Source: a virus
IMG/VR virus record: IMGVR_UViG_3300046692_000605
Location: 1-45,548 of that record
Direction: 5' to 3' (one strand)
DNA length: 45,548 nt
The notes under the pieces were generated by a model. That model had not been told where the DNA came from, did not search any database, and was given only the letters and a program-made list of their open reading frames with translations. Positions 4,290 through 13,366 of the stretch are shown in pieces. Numbering within the stretch: position 1 is the first letter of the stretch; the number at the start of each line of letters is the position of its first letter. Position numbers and translations under genes: made by a program.

Positions 4290-6074
4290 TCACGCTGCCT
4301 CCGTAGGCTGTGCCACCGACAGTGCTACTGCCACGGGCTGCACCCACACGGGGGTAGCCGACAACATGAACGTCTCGCCTGTCTCGGCCAGCAGCAGCGT
4401 GGTGCCCATCACCTCCGCGATGGCGCGCGCGGCGTCCGGCGGTACGGCGTTGCCGATGCGCTCGCGCCAGGCCTGATCGCTCAGGCCGTCCAGCTCCAAA
4501 TATTCCTCCGGCTCGATCAGCGATTGCAGCGCGGCCAGCTCGAGCGTGGTGAACGGGCGGTGCCACGTGCCGTCCAGGGCGCGGATGATCGCCACCAGCT
4601 TGTCATTCGGCGCCGGCATGCGCGGATCCGCCACCGACCACCGGCCGTTGTCGTGGCCGGCAGCTGCTGACACGGCGCCGCTCGACTGGTCCCACGCGAC
4701 CACGCCATAGTGGCCGCCGGTCAGGTATGCGTCGCCGCGCTCGCGCCGCATGCTGGTGCGTGGGTCCGCGACAGCGAAGGCACCCTGACCGGTGGTACTA
4801 CCGCTGATCACCGTCCCGGTGGGCGCGTCGAAGGGCGTCACAGCATATTTCCCGAAGGTCGGCCCTGCGCGCCGTGGGTCCTGCACGCACTGGCCCGTGC
4901 CGTGTGCGCTCGTGACGGCGCCGGCTGCCTGATCCCACGGAACGATGCGGAATTCGTTGTTGTGCTTGGCCGGGCCGGCGTGGCGCGGGTCGGCCACGCT
5001 GAAGGTGCCTTGGCCGGGATTCGTTCCGGCCGTGATGGCGCCTGACGCTTCGCCCCAGCGGAGAACCCCGTACTGCTGATACTGGGCCACGCCCGCCGCG
5101 TGCCGGGGGTCCGCCACGGAGAATGCGCCGTTGCTGGGAAGCGACTCGCCAGCGACCGCGCCAACATGCTCTTCCCAGTCCAGCACCCCCAGATAGCCGT
5201 TGCGCCGCTCCGGGATGATCAGGTAGTCGCGCAGGTGGCCATTCTCGACGGCCAGCTTGTTCAGGCTGCGCCAGTCGCTGCCGGCCTCCACGAACGCCAG
5301 CCGCACCCACGTCTTCCACTGCAGCGACGGGACACGGTGCATCGGCCCGCCGGCGGGATCGCCCGGGTGGGGCATCCTGCCGAGCACGGTGCCGACGCCC
5401 TGCAGGCGCCGCAGCTCGGGCTCGTACAGGAAGGCCGGCACCTTTTCCATGTGCCGCGCCACCAGGAGGAAGCGTTTCCGGCTCTGAGCCAGCCCGCCCA
5501 ACTCGCCGCAGTCGTGCGTCGTCTCGTTCACCGCGTAGCCGTAGTGCCGCAGGATCTGGGCAATCTGGTCGAGCAGGTGCCGGCCGCGCGTGGCCAGACG
5601 CGGCACGTTCTCGAACACGATCAGCTCGATCGGGTCATCCTTCCAGGCTTCGCACATCAGCCAGACGCAGCGCAGCGTCAGTTCGTTCAGCGCCTGGTAC
5701 TTCGGCGTGCGGCTCAGGGTCTCCGAAAGCAGGCCGGACGCGCCCTTGCATGGGGACGAGATGAACACGCAATGGGGCCGCTCGTGGCCGGCGGCGCGCA
5801 CGATGTCGTTCGGCGTGGCCTCGCGCCAGCCGGCCGGCGGCTCGGCACCGTGGAACGCGGTGTATTGCTCGCGGGTGAACAGGTCCATGACCGTGCACGG
5901 CACGCCCACGAGCGTCTCGAAGTCGCGCGCGGCAGCCGGGTCGACATCGATGCCGCCGATGCAGCGCCAGGTGGCGACCATGTTGCCCACTTGTGAGGCG
6001 GCCTTCTTGAAGCCCTTGGCGCCGCCGCCCAGACCGCAACAGAAGCCGAAGGTGCGATATTCGCGGCGGATCAT
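4290..6074 (-). CDS. DNA C5-cytosine methyltransferase with five internal repeats
   Basis: 594 residues, larger than a typical single-specificity enzyme. Motifs in order: motif I FCCGLGG (11-17), the catalytic motif IV SSPCKGAS with Cys109, motif VI FENVPR (154-159), motif VIII QSRKRFLLVAR (197-207), a motif IX-like segment RPFTTLELAALQ (506-517) and motif X RIGNAVPP (539-546). Between VIII and IX, where target recognition resides, five units of roughly 30-45 residues recur, each with a Y-x-V-x-x-W and GA(V/I)(T/S) part and ending in (V)ADPR. The start overlaps the stop of the upstream gene (ATGA), so it is the distal part of the leftward early operon. No partner endonuclease is present. An anti-restriction role is likely; multi-target specificity is possible. 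Confidence 0.93.
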   Translation of the reverse strand: MIRREYRTFGFCCGLGGGAKGFKKAASQVGNMVATWRCIGGIDVDPAAARDFETLVGVPCTVMDLFTREQYTAFHGAEPPAGWREATPNDIVRAAGHERPHCVFISSPCKGASGLLSETLSRTPKYQALNELTLRCVWLMCEAWKDDPIELIVFENVPRLATRGRHLLDQIAQILRHYGYAVNETTHDCGELGGLAQSRKRFLLVARHMEKVPAFLYEPELRRLQGVGTVLGRMPHPGDPAGGPMHRVPSLQWKTWVRLAFVEAGSDWRSLNKLAVENGHLRDYLIIPERRNGYLGVLDWEEHVGAVAGESLPSNGAFSVADPRHAAGVAQYQQYGVLRWGEASGAITAGTNPGQGTFSVADPRHAGPAKHNNEFRIVPWDQAAGAVTSAHGTGQCVQDPRRAGPTFGKYAVTPFDAPTGTVISGSTTGQGAFAVADPRTSMRRERGDAYLTGGHYGVVAWDQSSGAVSAAAGHDNGRWSVADPRMPAPNDKLVAIIRALDGTWHRPFTTLELAALQSLIEPEEYLELDGLSDQAWRERIGNAVPPDAARAIAEVMGTTLLLAETGETFMLSATPVWVQPVAVALSVAQPTEAA

Positions 6075-6685
6075 GCGCTCACCTCGCCGCTGGATTGGGT
6101 TGCCGCCTGCAGCTCGTCAATGCTTCGCCAAGCCCGCGCGCGCCACTCCGTGCCGTGCTGCAGCGCCAGCTGAATCAGCCAGTGCAGCACGTGCGCCTGC
6201 TCTTCCTCGCAGCGCTTCGGGATGTCGGTGCCGGCGGCACGCAGCGCATGCGCGATGGGCGTGGTGGTGTAGAGCATGAGGCCCAGCACCTCGAGCAGCG
6301 CATCGGTCGGCTCAGTCGGGTAGGGCAGCGTGCCCGGGGTAATCTCCGCAGAATTTGCGGTGATTGGGGTCGTATTCCCCGCAGCGGCGGCGGCGCAATC
6401 CGGGCACGGTACGCCGCCCTCGTCGGGCGCGTAGTAGCTCGGGCCGCCGATCATCCCGTGGTCGTTGCACGTGGCGCACTTCTGCGCGGCGGGCGGTGCG
6501 GCTTGGGCGAGGATGGCCAGTGCGGCGTCAATGCGCTTCTGCTGGCGACCGATGTCCACGTCGCGCGATCCCGGCGTGCCGTACTCCGGACGGATCGAGA
6601 CCAGCAGCGCGCGCAGCATTTCCATCTGTGGCAGCGTCATACCCTGCGCCACGCTCGCGGCTTCGTTGTTCTTCTCGTTGCTCAT
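6071..6685 (-). CDS. Hypothetical phage protein with CxxC pairs
   Basis: 204 residues from the ATG at 6685 (MSNEKNNEAASVAQ). In-frame starts further upstream (ATG 6721, TTG 6727) have no better ribosome site, so the start is uncertain. The middle contains two cysteine pairs, CATC and CPDC, about 25 residues apart with a glycine-rich stretch between (ATCNDHGMIGGPSYY), reminiscent of a DnaJ-type zinc knuckle or short zinc ribbon. The C-terminal third is helical. It is coupled to the C5 methyltransferase by an ATGA overlap. It could be a zinc-dependent structural or regulatory protein; function unknown. Confidence 0.7.
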   Translation of the reverse strand: MSNEKNNEAASVAQGMTLPQMEMLRALLVSIRPEYGTPGSRDVDIGRQQKRIDAALAILAQAAPPAAQKCATCNDHGMIGGPSYYAPDEGGVPCPDCAAAAAGNTTPITANSAEITPGTLPYPTEPTDALLEVLGLMLYTTTPIAHALRAAGTDIPKRCEEEQAHVLHWLIQLALQHGTEWRARAWRSIDELQAATQSSGEVSA

Positions 6686-10926: not shown

Positions 10927-11193
10927 TCAATCAACCGCGTAATACCGAAGTACACACACCCACTCGTCGCCATCGAGGCGAACGGCCTGAACGGCTGGGG
11001 AGCGGTACTGGTCAACGGAGATGGCCCGGGCGCTCGCTGCACGCACGACGGTGTCACGGTCGGCGCCGCGGAACTCGATCTCGGTCAGGCGGCTGCCGCG
11101 CGGCTGGCGCAGGACGCGCTCGCGCACACCAGCGGGGGCAGGGCGGGCGGCCGGCGTGGGGAACGGCCAGGGGGTGCGTTGGACGGAGGTCAT
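10927..11193 (-). CDS. Hypothetical early protein (88 aa)
   Basis: From the ATG at 11193 (GAGG about 9 nt upstream; overlaps the preceding stop, ATGA). The first 30 residues are Pro/Arg-rich and probably disordered. The remainder (LTEIEFRGADRDTVVRAASA and CVLRYYAVD at the end) looks like a small alpha/beta fold. No homologue recognised. It is the second cistron of the leftward operon. Confidence 0.6.
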   Translation of the reverse strand: MTSVQRTPWPFPTPAARPAPAGVRERVLRQPRGSRLTEIEFRGADRDTVVRAASARAISVDQYRSPAVQAVRLDGDEWVCVLRYYAVD

Positions 11194-11297
11194 TGGTCGG
11201 ACCTCGCGCCAACGTGGACGCATGCCCAGCCGATGAAGGCGCAAGCCAGTCCAGCCACGAAGAAGATGATGAGAGCGGTTGCCACGTTGGCCTCCAT
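11190..11297 (-). CDS. Micro membrane protein, first cistron of the leftward operon (35 aa)
   Basis: 35 residues with one clear transmembrane helix (ALIIFFVAGLACAFIGWACV). Its stop overlaps the next start (ATGA). No convincing Shine-Dalgarno precedes it, and the candidate PL start point would leave a leader of only about 12 nt, so it may be translated from a very short leader. Its position right after the operators makes it one of the first products after induction. Confidence 0.5.
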   Translation of the reverse strand: MEANVATALIIFFVAGLACAFIGWACVHVGARSDQ

Positions 11298-11315: not shown

Positions 11316-11343
11316 ATGTTACCAACTAGGTAACAATATGCAA
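11316..11343 (-). promoter_or_regulatory. Candidate leftward early promoter (PL)
   Basis: On the minus strand TTGCAT (11343-11338) and TAACAT (11321-11316) are separated by 16 bp, and the 17-bp operator 11318-11334 lies in the spacer and -10 area. Repressor binding there would block polymerase. The hexamers are only moderate matches, so the exact elements are uncertain. Confidence 0.4.
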
Positions 11344-11391
11344 ACCAAAAAGGTAATAGCAGCGATTGATTGTTTTTACTGTTTTGGTAAC
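11318..11391. promoter_or_regulatory. Left operator set: three 17-bp repressor-type sites
   Basis: Three sites share the dyad ACC-N5-GGT core. They are 11318-11334 (GTTACC AACTA GGTAAC, a perfect 6-bp dyad), 11341-11357 (CAAACC AAAAA GGTAAT) and 11375-11391 (TTTACT GTTTT GGTAAC). Three sites of the same pattern lie upstream of the repressor gene. The placement between the lipoprotein terminator and the first leftward gene corresponds to lambda OL. Binding by the repressor is inference. Confidence 0.65.
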
Positions 11392-11401
11392 AGTGATAGG
11401 C

Positions 11402-11430
11402 AAAAGAAAACCCGCCAAGGGTGGCGGGTT
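11402..11430 (-). terminator. Intrinsic terminator of the repressor-lipoprotein unit
   Basis: Perfect 9-bp stem AACCCGCCA/TGGCGGGTT (11409-11417 with 11422-11430), a 4-nt loop, and a T-rich run on the minus strand directly after it. It lies about 20 nt past the lipoprotein stop and just before the leftward operators, so it separates lysogenic from lytic transcription. Confidence 0.88.
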
Positions 11431-11450
11431 CGGTTGCGGCGCGGAAGGGG

Positions 11451-12104
11451 TTACTGTGACAGCAGCTTCTTCGTCTCTTCCGTGATGGATGCGAGGCCCT
11501 TCTCAATGATCTCTCGCCATTCACTGGTGGACGCCATCTGCTTGGAATCCGTCACGCGCGTCCGGATCGTCTGCTGTCCTTGAAGGTGGTCGACGTTCCC
11601 GGCGAGCTGAAGCTCTGACTTGTGGTTCACGCTGATCGACCAGAAGCCAGGCTGGAACCAAGCCCAGAAGTCGGTGATTTGCGCGCTGACCGGCGCAGCT
11701 GTATCGAAGTTCGGATCCCCCTTCTTGACGACCACGTAGCCTGCCTGCTGGAACCCCGTCGTCACAGCGCCCTCGACGAGACCAGAAACCGTCTTCCCTT
11801 CGGGTAGCAAAATATCGCCCAGCGCTTTGCCGTACGTATTTCGCTTCCGCCCGACTGCGCGCGCTTTTGAGGCGTCGCTCGTGTCCTCGTCTGGGTCTAA
11901 CGACGCCATGTCAGCGCTGGGCGGAGCGACCGTAAAGGTGCGCTTGTCCACGACCGAGTCGATGCGAACGTACTTGCCACTCGCCGGGTTCGCCGCTTGT
12001 GGGGCGGCAATGTCAACGGTACCGCGCCCTACGGCGCAGCCTGCAAGGATGGATGCCGCAAGGCCATAGGTCAGCAGACGGATGGTCAGCAATTTCTTCT
12101 CCAA
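11451..12104 (-). CDS. Prophage-expressed lipoprotein (moron candidate)
   Basis: 217 residues from a TTG at 12104; a second TTG at 12092 has GGAG 6 nt upstream and may be the true start (213 residues). The N-terminus is a lipoprotein signal peptide with lipobox LAGC, giving a lipidated Cys and envelope anchoring. The mature part has YajG-like features (VRIDSVVDKRTFTVAPP; GLVEGAVTTGFQQAGYVVV), but the family assignment is tentative. It begins 10 nt after the repressor stop, in the same transcript and before a terminator, so it should be made in the lysogen. Superinfection exclusion or altered host surface would fit; neither is shown. G+C appears lower than neighbouring genes. Confidence 0.82.
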   Translation of the reverse strand: MEKKLLTIRLLTYGLAASILAGCAVGRGTVDIAAPQAANPASGKYVRIDSVVDKRTFTVAPPSADMASLDPDEDTSDASKARAVGRKRNTYGKALGDILLPEGKTVSGLVEGAVTTGFQQAGYVVVKKGDPNFDTAAPVSAQITDFWAWFQPGFWSISVNHKSELQLAGNVDHLQGQQTIRTRVTDSKQMASTSEWREIIEKGLASITEETKKLLSQ

Positions 12105-12114
12105 TGGGATTGTT

Positions 12115-13023
12115 TTACTCAGGGCGCCAGGCGGACGGCTTGACGATTGCAGCTACGAAACTCAGTTCTTCGACCTCGGCGGCCGAAATCTTGACGGTCT
12201 TGTGGCTCTGGTTCACGGAAAGGAAGGCGCTGTAGCCGTCGCGCGTGTAGCCCAGAATCTTGATCATGACGCGGCCGTCCTTCGAGCGCACCAGGACTTC
12301 GTCGCCGGCGGCGACAGCATGGTTTGGCTCAATGACCACGAATTCCCCGTCCTTGATGCGTGGCTCCATCGAGTCTCCGACGCAGCGCAGGCCGTATGCG
12401 TCCGAATCCATGCTGAAGAACTGCAGATACCCGTCACCGTGCCCAACGGGGTACTCCAAGTCACAAAAATGGCCATTGTCACCAAGCTTTGCCATCGCTA
12501 GCACGGGGATCCTTCTGAAAGCGCTCTGGGGAATGGGAATCGGGGCCCAGTCGTCGTTGTAGCTGATGGCCGGCGTCGGCTGACCCTTGCCGTTCAGCAG
12601 CCACACCGAGTTGATCTGATGCTTCTCCTGGAGGCCGATCGCCTGCACTAGGGTGGGTTTCCTGGTGCCCTCGGCCCATTCCAGCACGTCCTGCTCTGTC
12701 GTGCCAGCAGCGAGCGCGATCTCCGCCGGAGGCAGGCCGATCTTCTCGAGCATGAATTTCACACGCCGGGCCAGATCCGTCGCCTGGTCGGACGGGACCA
12801 AGGGGCTCGCATCGGAGTCCATCCAGAATTTCGGGTAGCCGAGGGTTTCCTCGACCTTGCGCGCGGTCCGGTCGCCGATGTCCTTCGCCCCGCTGAGGTA
12901 GCGGTTGACGAGCGAGGGCGTGGAATAGCCAAGGCGCTCGGCGGCGCGGGACTGGTTGTCCTCGCACCGTTCACGGATGGCGATCGCCAGCTTCTCGCGG
13001 CGGATTTCCTTGATTGACTTCAT
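12115..13023 (-). CDS. CI/LexA-type prophage repressor with tandem HTH domains
   Basis: 302 residues, longer than lambda CI. Residues 12-68 form an XRE-like HTH (SRAAERLGYSTPSLVNRYLS). Residues 82-145 look like a second HTH (PPAEIALAAGTTEQDVLEW, ending in WLLNGKGQ). The C-terminal S24 peptidase domain has the nucleophile Ser218 in GDSMEP and the general base Lys255 in RVMIKILG, 37 residues apart as in LexA. The self-cleavage loop probably lies near VLAMAKLGDNG (174-184), where the usual Ala-Gly is not seen. RecA-stimulated cleavage after DNA damage is expected from the family. The ribosome site is weak, as is common for repressors. Three operator-like sites lie upstream and three more beyond the lipoprotein gene. 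Confidence 0.93.
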   Translation of the reverse strand: MKSIKEIRREKLAIAIRERCEDNQSRAAERLGYSTPSLVNRYLSGAKDIGDRTARKVEETLGYPKFWMDSDASPLVPSDQATDLARRVKFMLEKIGLPPAEIALAAGTTEQDVLEWAEGTRKPTLVQAIGLQEKHQINSVWLLNGKGQPTPAISYNDDWAPIPIPQSAFRRIPVLAMAKLGDNGHFCDLEYPVGHGDGYLQFFSMDSDAYGLRCVGDSMEPRIKDGEFVVIEPNHAVAAGDEVLVRSKDGRVMIKILGYTRDGYSAFLSVNQSHKTVKISAAEVEELSFVAAIVKPSAWRPE

Positions 13024-13042
13024 GCGCGTGATTGAACCCGGA

Positions 13043-13109
13043 GTGACCTAAAAGGTAAATAAACCGATCTGGTAACAGTTGTGCCTTGAACTATGACCAA
13101 AACGGTCAT
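13043..13109. promoter_or_regulatory. Right operator set: three 17-bp repressor-type sites
   Basis: Between the divergent repressor and Cro-like genes lie 13043-13059 (GTGACC TAAAA GGTAAA), directly abutting 13060-13076 (TAAACC GATCT GGTAAC), and 13093-13109 (ATGACC AAAAC GGTCAT). The last is part of a perfect 7-5-7 palindrome, 13092-13110. All keep ACC-N5-GGT, matching the left set. This corresponds to lambda OR. The third site differs in its outer half-site bases (GGTCAT rather than GGTAAC) and might be preferred by the Cro-like protein. Confidence 0.68.
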
Positions 13110-13114
13110 AGAAT
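13086..13114 (+). promoter_or_regulatory. Candidate rightward early promoter (PR)
   Basis: TTGAAC (13086-13091), a 17-bp spacer and TAGAAT (13109-13114) make a good sigma-70 promoter. The spacer holds the perfect operator dyad 13093-13109. The predicted start point is close to base 13121, the A of the Cro-like ATG, so the transcript would be leaderless or nearly so. Confidence 0.65.
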
Positions 13115-13120
13115 CGGGCC

Positions 13121-13366
13121 ATGGACACCATCACTTGCGCCCAAGACTTCAAATCCTTCTACCGGTCTCTGCCGGCGGAACGGAAGGAAGCGTTCGCAAA
13201 GGCGGCGAACACCACCACCGTCTACATCGAGACGCATCTGGTCTACGCGCGCAAGGTGCCGCGCAAAGCGAGCATGGATGCGCTCTGGAAGGCGTGCCAC
13301 GAATTCGGCGCGACGTTCAGCCGCGAAGACCTCTTGGCGTTTTTCTTCGCAGCTGGAGCAGCCTGA
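13121..13366 (+). CDS. Cro-like small regulator
   Basis: 81 residues, divergent from the repressor gene. The middle segment ERKEAFAKAANTTTVYIETH, with ARKVPRKASMDALWKACHEF and then FSREDLLAFF, fits the compact helical HTH of phage Cro/YdaS-type regulators. No Shine-Dalgarno is visible before the ATG, consistent with a leaderless transcript from the overlapping promoter. A role in shutting repressor synthesis after induction is inferred from position. Confidence 0.7.
   Translation: MDTITCAQDFKSFYRSLPAERKEAFAKAANTTTVYIETHLVYARKVPRKASMDALWKACHEFGATFSREDLLAFFFAAGAA

Follow-up and report, generated by a model that had tools for sequence, protein, structure and literature searches.

Two operator triplets around a phage repressor gene and the outer HTH domain that most likely reads them

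Introduction

Six 17-bp palindromic sites around the repressor gene of an IMG/VR phage are, with high probability, the OL and OR operators of a lambda-like lysis-lysogeny switch that are read by the first HTH domain (HTH1) of the repressor, and they very probably keep the phage dormant as lambda's operators do. The window, i.e. the whole stretch of DNA analysed here, is a phage contig of 45,548 bases with a GC content of 65.5%. A sequence-only reading of it had placed sites at 11318, 11341, 11375, 13043, 13060 and 13093, and all six are exactly there; the proposed layout of two triplets, on either side of a repressor-lipoprotein unit and upstream of both early operons, is likewise borne out. 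Comparison with 72 related repressors attributes the choice of operator to the N-terminal-most HTH, and not to the core of the protein.

Six sites in two triplets

The left triplet comprises OL site a (11318..11334; GTTACCAACTAGGTAAC, GTTACC-AACTA-GGTAAC), a perfect 6+6 dyad with the first leftward ORF 20 nt downstream, site b (11341..11357; CAAACCAAAAAGGTAAT, CAAACC-AAAAA-GGTAAT), the weakest of the six, and site c (11375..11391; TTTACTGTTTTGGTAAC, TTTACT-GTTTT-GGTAAC). In the right triplet, the site closest to the repressor start (13043..13059; GTGACCTAAAAGGTAAA, GTGACC-TAAAA-GGTAAA) directly abuts the middle site (13060..13076; TAAACCGATCTGGTAAC, TAAACC-GATCT-GGTAAC), while the third (13093..13109; ATGACCAAAACGGTCAT, ATGACC-AAAAC-GGTCAT) is a perfect dyad in the spacer of the predicted PR promoter and overlaps the first base of its -10 element. 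On the abutting pair (13043-13076), adjacent dimers would not share a face of the helix, in contrast to lambda.

When the window is scanned with a matrix derived from the 12 arm positions of these sites, they are the top six in the contig, scoring 12.9-18.4 bits against 10.7 bits for the next best position, and equally good matches elsewhere were not found. With leave-one-out matrices, five of the six outscore every other position; for the site at 11341, two others score as high or higher. A matrix from epsilon15-like phages, built without the window, ranks the sites 1, 2, 3, 4, 6 and 8 among about 45,500 positions. The bare ACC-N5-GGT core is insignificant on its own, as it occurs 24 times in the contig and the reversed pattern 18 times; the signal is carried by the dyad arms and the clustering. 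In a near-identical contig (L001), a single base differs within the sites; it lies in the 11341 site (GGTAAC) and improves the dyad.

That the sites are chance palindromes has a starting point in base composition, as the two intergenic stretches are AT-rich (55-63%) within a GC-rich contig. Local shuffles of these stretches, however, yield 0.03-0.04 such sites where three are observed in each, and sequence and spacing are conserved in diverged phages, which leaves this explanation with a negligible probability. Since matrix ranks, leave-one-out scores and shuffles agree, the six sites are confirmed as real.

Promoters and neighbouring genes

The repressor gene (12115..13023, minus strand) and a downstream gene for a lipoprotein-like cargo protein (11451..12104, minus strand), in the position of lambda rex, form a leftward unit, which an intrinsic terminator (11408..11431, minus strand) ends before OL. 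Among the relatives in which the slot between repressor and OL was compared (L011, L016, L051, L058 and L068), its occupant varies: the lipoprotein of the window recurs in L068, L011 has another HTH protein together with one that is putatively secreted, and L016, as judged by eye, a PemK-like protein. The slot is a candidate site for cargo expressed during lysogeny, like lambda rex. Beyond OL, a 35-aa membrane-protein-like ORF (11190..11297, minus strand), read from the sequence, probably opens the left operon and is followed by an HNH endonuclease and, further on, a RecT-type protein. The same operon encodes a C-5 cytosine methylase-like protein (4290-6074, minus strand; Pfam DNA_methylase).

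On the other side, the predicted PR promoter (13086..13114, plus strand; TTGAAC-17-TAGAAT) spans the 13093 site; its -10 element and, within the -35 element, the TTG are conserved in relatives. The overlap of operator and early promoter is seen for PR; a simple promoter scan recognised no consensus PL or PRM. Next to PR lies the gene for a Cro-like protein of 81 aa (13121..13366, plus strand), which is homologous to epsilon15 gp39, the product of the divergent gene in that phage. The protein matches no library family, and its Cro role is assigned from its position. Only 6 nt separate its start codon from the predicted -10 element (13109-13123), and the distance is 6-7 nt in L011 and L051, so that the gene probably yields a leaderless mRNA; in epsilon15, by contrast, the transcript is expected to carry a leader that is tens of bases long.

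Lambdoid repressors use two operator triplets, and in lambda the repressor and Cro share the same sites. The Cro-like protein, and not the repressor, could be the main owner of the six sites, and Cro-like genes do accompany this operator type in most loci. We consider this improbable, given that three relatives (L012, L014 and L015) retain the OR triplet with no divergent Cro-like gene detected, and that the match between the repressor's outer HTH and the operator, described below, holds for all types. L014 and L015 also have no OL cluster within 3.6 kb.

The repressor and its relatives

The repressor has 302 residues, with HTH1 at 4-61, a second HTH (HTH2) at 78-144 and an S24 peptidase-like domain from about residue 170. 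HTH1 is of the epsilon15/SPC32H Rep type: it matches the SPC32H Rep structure (PDB 5d50) and is 44-48% identical to epsilon15-like repressors, whereas HTH2 matches the 434 repressor. The AlphaFold2 model (pLDDT 82.5; pTM 0.45, so that relative domain placement is unreliable) has two separate HTH bundles (helices 4 to 61 and 78 to 144) followed by a beta domain, and Foldseek relates it to LexA, lambda CI and SPC32H Rep. The S24 domain carries a Ser-Lys dyad (Ser218 and Lys255). The position of the cleavage bond, placed by eye, reads Leu180-Gly181, as it does in all 72 relatives, in part because one of the search probes contained these residues; because the usual bond is Ala/Cys-Gly, as in lambda, 434 and P22, self-cleavage of the repressor is uncertain.

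The region otherwise resembles that of lambda, 434 and P22: as in these phages, two operator triplets flank repressor and cargo (the rex slot), cro is divergent, the repressor is of the S24 type and sites lie inside early promoters. It differs from them in that the repressor has two HTHs and that two of the OR sites directly adjoin, with a step of 17 bp.

A single-sequence search of 84,980 genomes with the repressor found no relative; an alignment-based search reached five. In relatives that share HTH1, the OR triplet recurs with steps of 29-34 and 17 bp, at a near-fixed distance from start codons that were chosen by hand. The OL triplet recurs in L001, L011, L016, L051, L058 and L068, its steps being 34 and 23-25 bp, and site a is conserved in L001, L011, L051, L058 and L068. 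The triplets persist although identity to the window repressor drops to about 43%.

The similarity extends to epsilon15, SPC32H and phiV10 (Uetakevirus), whose Rep proteins have a homologous first HTH and a second HTH-like region, and which also share a homologous divergent small protein and a left operon of the exonuclease-HNH-RecT type. Epsilon15-like phages, SPC32H among them, carry ATTACC-N5-GGTAAT sites upstream and downstream of the repressor, and the epsilon15 record annotates three of them as sites of repressor binding. The operators of epsilon15 and SPC32H thus have the TTACC-N5-GGTAA form of the window, and the abutting OR pair with its 17-bp step is kept as far as epsilon15. SPC32H Rep uses its C-terminal domain to form tetramers and to bind the antirepressor Ant (PMC9986798, PMC9638917). 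Since an S24 domain takes the place of this domain in the window, the inducing trigger has probably changed from antirepressor to DNA damage.

The repressor of the Paraburkholderia phage IPK is related through its core, which is 44% identical over residues 71-302, and its operators likewise have TTACC half-sites and an upstream triplet. It differs in its outer HTH and in the operator spacer, which is 4 bp instead of 5 bp long; the TTACC half-site with a 4-bp spacer occurs under a different outer HTH in both L002 and L009, i.e. IPK and a relative.

Operators follow the outer HTH

Upstream of 72 repressors with a common HTH2-S24 core, we searched for repeated palindromes without any preset pattern. 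Nearly all of them are preceded by sets of two or three palindromes, whose sequence differs with the type of the N-terminal HTH (TAAACA-N3, AATACA-N2, TAGGCA-N1, TAGCGA-N1, GTATAG-N5, ACTAGC-N3, GTAGCA-N2, ATTACC-N4 and others). With types grouped on the first 75 residues alone, and in part by hand, a motif is common to 85.4% of the 268 same-type pairs but to none of the 2,288 different-type pairs, even though 50 of these have a core similarity of 0.8 or more. Likewise, the partial correlation with the operator is 0.35 for the outer HTH and 0.09 for the core (0/500 permutations), where the loci are related by descent and the permutations correct for kinship only in part. In the window's own HTH1 cluster (12 proteins), the motif was missed, misregistered or reduced to a weak two-site form in several members, the window included; these irregular motifs were recognised with the known pattern rather than by the unsupervised search.

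The outer HTH and OR might be co-inherited through adjacency alone, without any recognition, given that no more than 100 bp separate OR from the HTH1 codons. Such linkage cannot explain the match at OL, which sits beyond the core, up to about 3 kb away, and yet corresponds to the outer HTH just as specifically: when the DNA downstream of the repressor is searched, OR motifs of the repressor's own type find OL-like clusters in 53 of 65 loci, whereas those of other types do so in 2 of 780 tests. Two G-type loci (L035 and L038) that clustered with the window HTH1 were excluded from the cross-type OL and OR tests. In addition, the annotated repressor sites of epsilon15, a phage with a homologous HTH1 in its Rep, have the same sequence. 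We therefore regard mere co-inheritance as very improbable. One of the two cross-type matches is between two related types; the other, in L059, has an OL of core type under a different outer HTH. We rejected this locus as an exception, as the protein retrieved lies behind another repressor, which is of the core type with a single HTH and is preceded by sites that agree with that OL. This single-HTH repressor (L059:2792-3565) has a different S24 domain, and a second repressor-like gene follows immediately downstream of it; the GTTTAG-N4 sites of this locus are at 2792-2854 (OR) and 6368-6428 (OL).

Inner HTH domains

Repressors that consist of the core only have an operator of their own, GTTTAG-N4-CTAAAC. 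At the other extreme, some proteins contain three HTHs (types A+I+core, H+I+core and M+I+core), and their operators are those of the outermost HTH; no type I or core-type motif was found at OR and OL of these loci. The inner HTHs also differ in charge: helices 2-3 average -1.7 in tandem proteins and +0.8 in core-only proteins (p = 0.0006, uncorrected for relatedness), whereas the net charge of the whole HTH2 is alike in both (p = 0.88). The acidic helices 2-3 are as expected for an inner HTH that would no longer touch DNA. L018 is possibly a recent case, in which the recognition helix of core-only proteins is kept behind a new head.

These comparisons bear on whether HTH1 and HTH2 of one chain each touch part of every operator, so that the tandem pair would be the reader. 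HTH2 is modelled as an intact HTH, resembles that of the 434 repressor and has an HTH-like counterpart in Rep of the epsilon15 type, all of which would suit this arrangement. Yet among the relatives, operators differ fully where only the outer HTH differs and are unchanged where an extra inner HTH is present, core and I-type motifs are absent from three-HTH loci, and helices 2-3 of HTH2 are mostly acidic in tandem proteins. We consequently judge a joint reading by both domains to be unlikely. The sequence-only reading had the tandem-HTH repressor bind all six sites. A single repressor for all of them is strongly supported by the conserved triplets, the shared epsilon15/SPC32H operator and the likeness of OL and OR motifs; its tandem pair as the reader is not. 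Because operators follow the outermost HTH in two- and three-HTH proteins and differ in core-only ones, the reading of the six sites most likely falls to HTH1, with no part in it for the inner HTH.

Discussion

We infer that the repressor, bound through HTH1, would cover the cro promoter PR at OR and the leftward early promoter at OL, and would probably regulate its own promoter. Its S24 domain would serve to oligomerise, and OL-OR looping is plausible, with the triplets about 1.7 kb apart and possibly bridged by this domain; the same domain would inactivate the repressor after DNA damage (SOS). HTH2 would be part of a common HTH2-S24 core behind many unrelated heads and no longer select the operator.

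The OL/OR switch and the pairing of operator and HTH1 are of known kinds. In lambdoid and Shiga-toxin phages, cI and adjacent replication modules recombine, and the diversity of CI has been suggested to reflect different targets (PMC8951638). The type described here differs from these mosaic cI regions in that heads are stacked before a core which retains an HTH of its own, so that a chain has two or three of them. In the literature searched, which was thin on subscription journals, we found no description of stacked-HTH S24 repressors, and a reading head that is stacked and can be exchanged appears to be a variant not described so far.

We favour, with moderate confidence, a general scheme in which the HTH2-S24 core is portable and stands behind about a dozen unrelated heads, with up to three HTHs per protein: only the outermost would be read out, the buried ones would have lost this role, and OR and OL would both have changed to match, such that immunity is switched while the induction sensor is kept. 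The phages thus seem to change immunity and to keep the same damage-sensing core.

While the switch itself is ordinary lambda-like biology in an uncharacterised phage, dozens of natural domain swaps tie the reading head to the operator, which makes superinfection-immunity groups predictable from sequence and adds about a dozen new repressor-operator pairs. They also raise the question of how, when the head is replaced, the two operator regions on either side of a conserved core come to fit the new one.
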